Assembly: GCA_021325295.1 (NCBI GenBank)
Contig: JAJPHM010000052.1
Coordinates: 62,001-126,000 of the forward strand
Length of the DNA stretch: 64,000 nt
Direction of reading: 5' to 3'
DNA from: Nitrososphaeraceae archaeon
GTDB taxonomy: Archaea > Thermoproteota > Nitrososphaeria > Nitrososphaerales > Nitrososphaeraceae
Shown here: positions 30,797 to 33,405 of the stretch, one piece after another
Position numbering within the stretch: the first letter of the stretch is position 1
How the letters are laid out: each line of letters starts with the position of its first letter
Position numbers and translations under genes: made by a program
The notes under the pieces: model-generated
Seen by the model: the letters and a program-made list of their open reading frames with translations, nothing else
Database searches by the model: none
Told to the model about the DNA's origin: nothing

Positions 30797-30840
30797 GTAG
30801 GAATCCAAGTTTAAGAAATGGGCAGATGTGGCAGAGTGGT

Positions 30841-30874
30841 CTTCTTGCTCGCATATGTGTGCGTAAGAACACAA
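30841..30874 (+). other. non-canonical D-loop intron of tRNA-Ser
   Basis: A 34-nt insertion after AGTGGT of the D loop. TTCTT and AAGAA inside it pair, enclosing a CGCA/TGCG hairpin, and exonic GTG can pair with CAC just before the 3' site. This gives a bulge-helix-bulge-like fold with a three-pair central helix and bulges GTC and AAT. Exact splice points could shift by a base or two. Confidence 0.7.
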
Positions 30875-30892
30875 TAATGCGTCGGCCTTGAG

Positions 30893-30928
30893 TCCTTTAC
30901 AAACCGAATCCGCCAAAAAAGGCAAGCC
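30893..30928 (+). other. canonical 37/38 intron of tRNA-Ser
   Basis: A 36-nt insertion between anticodon-loop positions 37 and 38. Exonic CTTG (30887-30890) pairs with CAAG (30923-30926), with three-base bulges AG|T and CC|A on opposite strands, and intronic CCTTT pairs with AAAGG. This is a perfect bulge-helix-bulge for the archaeal splicing endonuclease. Confidence 0.88.
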
Positions 30929-31084
30929 AGCCGATTCGCCCTCGGGCGATCAGGAGTTCGAATCTCCTCATCTGCGCCATTTTCTTATTCTACTTCGCTC
31001 GCGAGTGTCTTTTCAGATCTATGTCTTTCCATTGTTTCATTGGCTGTTGTCTTATCTATGTTTCTGGCAAACAACAATGCCAGT

Positions 31085-32191
31085 TCAAGCCTTTCTGGCA
31101 GATTCTCTGTGCTGCCTGTCTTTTACTTTTTGGCTATGTTCTGACTTGATTCTTCTTTCAAGCCTTGCAATCAAATCCTTGGATGCACTTATTGGATCAT
31201 AACCTACAGCCTTGGCATCAATTATCCCCCTAGTGGTCATGAGCCGCGTTCTGAGCGAGTATTTACGCGTTTTATGTTTGTCGGCATAAATCACCACAGA
31301 TCTGACGTCTTCGATTCTTCCCTGTATCTTTTTGAGAAACCTTGACATCTGGTCTTGGATTTCTCTCCGAGCTTCTGCCTCATCAAGATGTGATATGTGG
31401 ATTATAGGCTCGCTTTTTTTTGGCAATACCAGCTCTAAAGCATCCTTGGGTGTGACTACGCCAATAGGTCTGCCATCACCTACAACGACAATTTCTTCCT
31501 TATTCCTGAAACTATCAAGAACAGTATTGAGTTTGGAGCCTCTCTCCACAGAGATAGCCTTTCTTATTATGTCTTTGACCTTTACATCCCTAATGTCAGC
31601 AATCCCGCCGCTTACAGCTGCTGACTTGCTCGTTCTTTCTCTAGGAGTTGAAATTATTCGGCCAATATCCAAGGCATTTATTGTGCCCTTGAGTATACCT
31701 CGTGAATCTATGACAGGCAGCCTCGAGATATTGTATCTTCTCATTTTAGATATTGCATCGGCAAGCTTGGTATCCTCCTCGATGACGATTGCTCCTGACA
31801 TGACTTCATCTACCGTTGCATGGCCAAAATCTGCCGTCAGAACTATGTCTGTCTCGCTGACAATTCCCGCCAAGTTTCCCTTTCCATTTTTAACAACAGG
31901 CAGGGCACGGTTTCCGCTACCTATTACAAGCTGCGCTGCTTTTTCAATACTATCGTCAGGATCAAGTGTTGGTGTCCTGACTATAAAGCTCTTTAACTTT
32001 GACGAAGGCATGGGATTGGTGGCAAGAAATTGCTTTGCAAATATCATCCCTGCATATCTGCCGCCATCATCGACTATCGGTATCTGATTAATGGATTTAT
32101 CCGTCATGATGCTGAAAGCTTTTGCAACTGTATCTTCTGCACTCAAGCTGAAGACGTTTCCAACCATGATATCAGAAACTTTCATGCTCAT
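31085..32191 (-). CDS. four-CBS-domain protein fused to HPF/RaiA-like ribosome-hibernation domain
   Basis: A 368-aa protein. Four CBS motifs lie at about residues 5-55, 65-120, 125-180 and 200-250 (for example GGRYAGMIFAKQFL, RGILKGTINALDIG, DGRPIGVVTPKDAL). The last ~105 residues have the HPF/RaiA pattern: RFLKKIQGRIEDVRSVVIYA, then KYSLRTRLMTTRG, then SKDLIARLERRIK with a basic tail. HPF-type proteins occupy the decoding centre and silence ribosomes during starvation. Linked to CBS domains, which bind AMP, ADP or ATP, the protein could sense energy state and switch ribosomes off. That function is inference; the domain order is visible. The gene is divergent from the sugar-dehydrogenase gene with 89 bp between starts. 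Confidence 0.82.
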   Translation of the reverse strand: MSMKVSDIMVGNVFSLSAEDTVAKAFSIMTDKSINQIPIVDDGGRYAGMIFAKQFLATNPMPSSKLKSFIVRTPTLDPDDSIEKAAQLVIGSGNRALPVVKNGKGNLAGIVSETDIVLTADFGHATVDEVMSGAIVIEEDTKLADAISKMRRYNISRLPVIDSRGILKGTINALDIGRIISTPRERTSKSAAVSGGIADIRDVKVKDIIRKAISVERGSKLNTVLDSFRNKEEIVVVGDGRPIGVVTPKDALELVLPKKSEPIIHISHLDEAEARREIQDQMSRFLKKIQGRIEDVRSVVIYADKHKTRKYSLRTRLMTTRGIIDAKAVGYDPISASKDLIARLERRIKSEHSQKVKDRQHRESARKA

Positions 32192-32280
32192 TATCTTTTG
32201 CGCCCTCTTTTTTCCAATTGCTTGCTCACAAACAAAAGGTCCGACATTACATTAAAAACCTTCCCTCTAGCACCTATCAA

Positions 32281-33405
32281 ATGAGCATGGATCGCCGCCT
32301 TGCCCTTACAGTCGCTGCCGCTGCAGCCGTTATTGCCATAAGTGCGGTGACAATTTACAGAGCACCCTCTGATACCTCTATACCAATTCCGCAGCCTGGC
32401 AGTCCTGGCGGCGGTAGCGCCGATAGAGGCATACAGATCGTAGCTAACAACTTGGATGCACCATGGGCAATTGATATTGCCAAAGACGGTAGGATCTTTT
32501 TTACCGAGATGACAGGCGAGATCAGGGTAATTTTACCCAACGGCACTCTCATAGCAGACCCGGCAGCTTACATAAATACCCAGCACCACGGAGAATCAGG
32601 CCTGTTGGGTCTGGCGTTGCACCCTAACTTTACAGAAAACCATCTGCTTTACATATACTATACTTACTCCAATTCAACCGAGGAAAAAATCTATAACAAG
32701 GTCGTAATGCTTACAGAAAAGGACAACAAGATAATTCAGGCCAAAGTAATAGTTGACCGCATTCCCGGAGCTGATAGAGACAACGGCGGACGGCTAAAGT
32801 TTGGACCTGACGGCAAGCTGTACATATCGACCGGTGATGCTGGGAATCCAGAACTTGCAGGAGATCCAGGATCTCTTGCTGGCAAGATCCTCAGGGTGAA
32901 CCCTGACGGAAGTATTCCAAGAGATAATCCATTCCCCGGCTCACCAGTATACTCATACGGGCACAAAGACATTCTTGGCATGGCATGGAATCCCCAGACT
33001 GGGGGGATGTATGCCAGCGATCAGAGAGAGGGAGAAGATGAAATTAACCTGATAAAGGCAGGTGCGAACTACGGGTGGCCTATTGTTGAATGTGCTGATG
33101 CTGAAAAGTCAGGCAAAGCTGTAATATGCTTCAGTCCTCAGATCTCTCCAAGTGGCATGGTATTTGCATCTTCTAGCCGGCTTGGATACCAGAACGACCT
33201 GATAATTGCTACGCTGAAAGGGCAGAGCCTCAGGCTAGTCGACTTCAAGTCGCAGACTCAGGAGAGTATACTGGTAGGTTACGGCCGAATGCGCGATGTC
33301 ATAGAGGCACAAGATGGTTCGCTTTATGCTATCACAAGCAACAGAGACGGAGAAGGAACGCCTCAACAAGGTGACGACAAGATTCTAAGGATAACCAAAC
33401 CATAG
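32281..33405 (+). CDS. exported PQQ-type sugar dehydrogenase-like beta-propeller
   Basis: A 374-aa protein of the glucose/sorbosone dehydrogenase (Gdh/YliI) family. An N-terminal hydrophobic helix (LALTVAAAAAVIAISAVTIY) acts as signal or anchor and a Pro/Gly-rich linker follows. Family motifs include LDAPWAIDIAKDGRIFFTE, HHGESGLLGLALHPNF, DRDNGGRLKFGPDGKLYIST and NYGWPIVEC. The His of HHGE and the DxDNGGR/GPDG turn correspond to catalytic and Ca/PQQ-binding regions in bacterial homologues. Whether PQQ is available in this organism is unknown. I chose ATG 32281 because it begins the signal helix; an earlier in-frame start at 32218 would overlap the promoter of the divergent gene. Confidence 0.85.
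   Translation: MSMDRRLALTVAAAAAVIAISAVTIYRAPSDTSIPIPQPGSPGGGSADRGIQIVANNLDAPWAIDIAKDGRIFFTEMTGEIRVILPNGTLIADPAAYINTQHHGESGLLGLALHPNFTENHLLYIYYTYSNSTEEKIYNKVVMLTEKDNKIIQAKVIVDRIPGADRDNGGRLKFGPDGKLYISTGDAGNPELAGDPGSLAGKILRVNPDGSIPRDNPFPGSPVYSYGHKDILGMAWNPQTGGMYASDQREGEDEINLIKAGANYGWPIVECADAEKSGKAVICFSPQISPSGMVFASSSRLGYQNDLIIATLKGQSLRLVDFKSQTQESILVGYGRMRDVIEAQDGSLYAITSNRDGEGTPQQGDDKILRITKP

Follow-up and report, generated by a model that had tools for sequence, protein, structure and literature searches.

What does an archaeal protein made of four CBS domains and an HPF-like C-terminus do, and does it act on the ribosome? The question is raised by an open reading frame in the window (the whole 64,000-nucleotide stretch of DNA analysed here), which the first-pass annotation had read as a possible energy-sensing ribosome hibernation factor. 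We find that the encoded protein is a new member of the known HibA family and, judging from sequence profiles and a predicted structure, very probably a ribosome-parking factor. We put the probability that the gene belongs to this family and uses the hibernation mechanism, as carried over by analogy from P. abyssi HibA, at about 0.9. The features of the locus are the following.

31085..32191, minus strand: hibA-like gene, 368 aa (open reading frame; best PDB match of its profile, P. abyssi HibA chain 9sr9_H, E 2.1e-33)
31409..32185, minus strand: N-terminal CBS module with four CBS domains (Pfam PF00571, four matches; AlphaFold model)
31592..31648, minus strand: CBS3-CBS4 loop, residues 182-200 (model disorder at 185-198, conservation, 9sr9_H alignment up to residue 191)
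31442..31453, minus strand: T247-P-K-D250 motif of CBS4 (conservation, profile alignment)
31088..31405, minus strand: C-terminal HPF/RaiA-like domain, residues 263-368 (profile, model, Foldseek, conservation)
30822..30979, plus strand: tRNA-Ser(UGA), class II, with CCA encoded and two introns (ARAGORN intron option, intron removal, relatives)

The boundaries of the open reading frame are exact. Nearly all relatives of the protein use its second ATG (M3, position 32185) as their start, and the window gene therefore probably starts there as well. The frame is kept in Nitrososphaeraceae at 56-73% identity and stands alone, with a convergent tRNA gene downstream and a divergent open reading frame upstream (32218-33405, plus strand), which by its appearance we take to encode a PQQ-type sugar dehydrogenase. 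The host genome encodes an archaeal AmoA (E 3.4e-117), and named relatives belong to Nitrososphaera or Nitrososphaeraceae. Thus, the host is an ammonia-oxidising archaeon, as the first-pass annotation had supposed.

Pfam PF00571 matches four stretches of the protein (E 8.6e-39) and, together with the model, places the CBS domains at about residues 3-60, 66-120, 125-181 and 203-255. Nothing else was significant in the Pfam search of the protein, and the NCBIfam search returned generic CBS matches only, below the cut-off. Foldseek hits of the full-length model were dominated by CBS/AMPK-gamma structures, the CBS part resembling ribosome-bound archaeal CBS proteins (9znf, 9zng and Dri, 9e6q) as well as MJ1225/AMPK-gamma. 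Since this search was uninformative on the C-terminus, the C-terminal domain was folded alone.

In the AlphaFold model, the C-terminal region consists of a beta strand (263-267), a helix (272-289), three strands (296-305, 311-319 and 323-330) and a long helix (333-367). Modelled alone, the domain retained the HPF topology (pLDDT 89.6), and the matches ranked 1-35 by Foldseek in the PDB were all HPF, RaiA or protein Y, many of them ribosome-bound; the best was 8fmw_W (E 2.7e-6), unrelated folds appeared from E 0.03, and the HibA chain itself was absent among the 50 matches listed. A profile of the domain built from 12 sequences and compared with PDB chains matched HPF (4v8h, E 2.8e-4; 2rql, E 3.3e-3) and also P. 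abyssi HibA 9sr9_H, at an E-value of 9.2e-3 that is weak for the domain alone. Nitrososphaerales have two HibA subtypes, type A, that of the window protein, and type B, and the domain profile also matches divergent relatives (profile-profile E 3.9e-8). Two divergent type B relatives, L128 (28.9 bits) and L113 (26.5 bits), score above the Pfam S30AE cut-off, and L128 carries CBS domains in the same chain as its S30AE match. Within the window protein and its whole genome, Pfam S30AE (PF02482) gave no match above the gathering cut-off, and phmmer with the C-terminal piece as a single sequence did not reach HPF (i-E 23); the silence of S30AE is resolved by the fold and profile evidence, which shows an HPF domain. 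The domain contains a conserved YxDKHKTRKYSxRxR stretch at residues 302-316, and its mean conservation is 0.74 versus 0.69-0.79 for the CBS module. Judged by model topology, Foldseek, profiles and transitivity via divergent relatives, the C-terminal HPF/RaiA domain is real. The structure check posed beforehand for this region thus returned the predicted beta-alpha-beta-beta-beta-alpha topology of HPF, along with profile matches to HPF and HibA, and the proposed architecture of four CBS domains followed by HPF/RaiA is borne out.

When the full-length profile was compared with all PDB chains, P. abyssi HibA was the best match, followed by the CBS chain 9l96_a (E 2.1e-29), whose alignment likewise includes the C-terminal domain. 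The loop between CBS3 and CBS4 provides a further point of comparison. It opens with P183-R-E185-R186, of which P183, E185 and R186 are invariant, and a PxE[RK] motif is found at the loop start in the majority of homologues of both types, A and B, the divergent ones included. The loop's counterpart in P. abyssi HibA is the PTC loop (190-207), an equivalence by position only, since 9sr9_H is aligned here no further than its residue 191. On account of the full-length profile match, the loop position and the PxE[RK] motif, we file the window protein as a HibA.

HibA was first described experimentally in 2026 (Nat Commun, April 2026; PMC13324472) as a protein of four CBS domains plus HPF/RaiA, present in 47% of archaeal genomes, in which the HPF domain carries two archaeal-specific insertions. 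The family-wide look at such fusions that had been recommended for this locus was overtaken by that work. HibA is abundant on idle ribosomes, where cryo-EM found it on 70S in three conformations; it inhibits translation in vitro, Thermococcus barophilus deleted for hibA recovers later and has less 70S, and HibA function was shown in Pyrococcus/Thermococcus (PMC13324472). By analogy, the window protein would bind, silence and protect ribosomes and bind nucleotides. Homology, predicted fold and the anatomy common to both proteins support the designation as a ribosome hibernation factor, from which we infer the role on the ribosome.

The mechanism carried over from HibA would run as follows. In starved or stressed cells, the HPF/RaiA domain at the C-terminus would enter the mRNA/tRNA channel of the 30S subunit at the decoding centre, and the four-CBS module would cover vacant tRNA sites of the 50S subunit, reaching the PTC via the CBS3-CBS4 loop, the P/E site or the L1 stalk. 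Inactive 70S particles would thereby be held together and protected until growth resumes. Adenine nucleotides at CBS3/4 may tune availability or release. In the T247-P-K-D250 motif of CBS4, T, P and D are invariant in the window family and match the T-x-x-D of P. abyssi CBS4; the motif is a likely contact of a predicted CBS3/4 nucleotide site. Because T247 and D250 are invariant, adenylate binding there is plausible, and by analogy the CBS3/4 pair of the window protein probably binds adenine nucleotides.

Whether such binding would make the protein an energy gate, with AMP or ATP at CBS3/4 making the HPF domain dock on the ribosome or leave it, is a matter of refining the HibA reading rather than opposing it. 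We consider this refinement unlikely. CBS modules usually bind adenylates, the invariant T247 and D250 fit such a role, and the P. abyssi HibA CBS module binds AMP, ADP and ATP (Kd 12, 65 and 113 uM, respectively), one nucleotide per module, at CBS3/4 (PMC13324472). However, the ribosome-bound states of P. abyssi HibA were unchanged by AMP and barely changed by ATP, and native HibA-ribosome complexes were free of nucleotide (PMC13324472). Of the earlier epithet "energy-sensing", the adenylate binding therefore stands for the P. abyssi homologue, and no notable nucleotide effect on its ribosome-bound states was seen.

Two further readings would give the ribosome a lesser role or none. The CBS module might serve mainly another partner, for instance replication or recombination proteins, with ribosome binding being secondary, as could be argued from Thermococcales pull-downs in which HibA came down with DNA replication/recombination proteins (work cited in PMC13324472) and from HhpR, a CBS-module protein that acts in transcription (PMC13324472). 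Yet idle ribosomes carry HibA in abundance and 70S pools shrink when it is deleted (PMC13324472), and the HPF domain and the CBS module are equally well conserved here, which makes this reading very improbable. Even less credible is an ordinary CBS regulator whose C-terminal likeness to HPF reflects a common alpha/beta fold devoid of ribosome function: the missing Pfam S30AE call favours it, but Foldseek, profile and transitive evidence all indicate HPF/RaiA, and the protein that matches best over the full length is a homologue characterised by experiment as bound to the ribosome. We thus retain the HibA reading, with nucleotide control as a possible addition.

The tRNA gene that was said to adjoin the window gene is indeed there, tail to tail with hibA and 105 bp from its stop codon. 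Default ARAGORN and Rfam found no tRNA at 30822-30979, a false negative caused by the introns. Removal of an insert of ~34 nt in the D-arm and another of ~35 nt in the anticodon loop yields a regular class II tRNA with a UGA anticodon; among 576 trial intron boundaries, which produced 558 calls, Ser-UGA was obtained in 138, and the other calls shift the anticodon frame. The call "Ile(tat)" made by the ARAGORN intron option was rejected, given the regular tRNA-Ser(UGA) obtained by removing both introns and the conservation of its exons. In seven relatives the exons are almost invariant and both inserts vary in length and sequence, the anticodon-loop insert being missing from the tRNA of L059; the inserts are therefore introns. 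The D-arm intron lies in a non-canonical place. The 3' half of the tRNA was found just past the hibA 3' end, by ungapped matches of at least 44/50, in 26 of the 28 relative loci of Nitrososphaeraceae examined (L008-L011 and L057-L080), and in L069, one of the two exceptions, the contig is cut off at that point. Thus, tRNA-Ser(UGA) is a conserved convergent neighbour of hibA across Nitrososphaeraceae. In L068, the 3' end of the tRNA apparently overlaps that of hibA.

Several genera of Nitrososphaeraceae seemed to lack the gene, and loss of HibA was considered for them; this explanation was rejected, as those genera carry type B, which was detected with a domain profile (A7) built from divergent relatives. 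Type B members in Nitrososphaeraceae are mostly open frames of 370-430 aa, and CBS domains are present in all five fused members checked in this family and its neighbours. Among 37 good Nitrososphaeraceae genomes, 16 have A only, 16 B only, three both and two neither, so that one or the other subtype is present in 35; this largely mutual exclusion (Fisher p 1e-5) is calculated regardless of kinship, and the pattern follows genera. The HPF-domain tree, limited by its 126 columns and by a long branch to the outgroup, separates A from B (98/98). Several Nitrososphaeraceae genomes (for example G001, G014, G021 and G232) contain two or more type B paralogues each; L132 and L133 are such copies, located at about 54.6 kb and 731 kb of G001:C1. 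L087 and L088, from the g2 genomes G127 and G134, are strongly diverged type A-like HibA proteins, and type B is present as well in the g2 genomes G134 and G162.

Type B extends to another family of the same order, f9, which we take, almost certainly, to be Nitrosopumilaceae. The type B profile is matched there in 128 of 250 genomes, including 86 of the 131 good ones, and in 14 of 22 genera, either as a CBS fusion or as a standalone HPF. In genus g44, presumably Nitrosopumilus, it is mostly a standalone protein of about 113 aa, as exemplified by L113 (G117:C1, about 614.7 kb), L095, L101, L103 and L114. These proteins are nested within B in the HPF-domain tree (126 columns, long outgroup branch), as would be expected had the CBS module been lost. 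We consider it likely that ammonia-oxidising archaea possess two anciently split HibA lineages, A and B, which largely replace one another, that B reaches the almost certain Nitrosopumilaceae, and that Nitrosopumilus lost its CBS module, retaining an HPF of 113 aa. Nothing on ribosome hibernation in N. maritimus came up in a literature search. In its text, the HibA paper names Nitrosopumilaceae as having no identifiable hibernation factors and mentions standalone HPF/RaiA-like proteins in 'Nitrososphaerales' (PMC13324472). About half of the genomes sampled from a family reported to be without such factors thus encode proteins with a recognisable HPF domain.

The type of system is already explained by the 2026 HibA paper, to which the present analysis adds the distribution of two subtypes and the homologues in the probable Nitrosopumilaceae. 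Should both subtypes be functional, an HPF-based dormancy system would be present in almost every member of Nitrososphaeraceae and in many Nitrosopumilaceae. The window protein is a concrete candidate dormancy factor for ammonia-oxidising archaea, which are slow-growing, often energy-starved and major nitrifiers of soil and ocean.

Among known systems, HibA itself (P. abyssi Q9UYR4, PDB 9SR9/9SRE) is the closest in anatomy, with four tandem CBS domains, then HPF/RaiA, and a CBS3-CBS4 loop, as in the window protein, and is of similar length (392 versus 368 aa); C-terminal sequence identity between the two is low, and the window lineage is known from sequence and model. Bacterial HPF and RaiA (pY), unlike the window protein, have no CBS module, and the window protein scores below the Pfam S30AE cut-off. 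The standalone proteins of g44 have an HPF domain homologous to that of the window protein but lack the CBS module and belong to the type B branch. Dri and Sri (9e6q, 9znf, 9zng and 9zni), found ribosome-bound in archaea, share the CBS-module fold with the window protein. Sri chains, 270-339 aa long, are CBS proteins, and Dri combines two CBS modules in one chain that lacks an HPF domain (PMC13324472), whereas the window protein combines one CBS module with an HPF domain.
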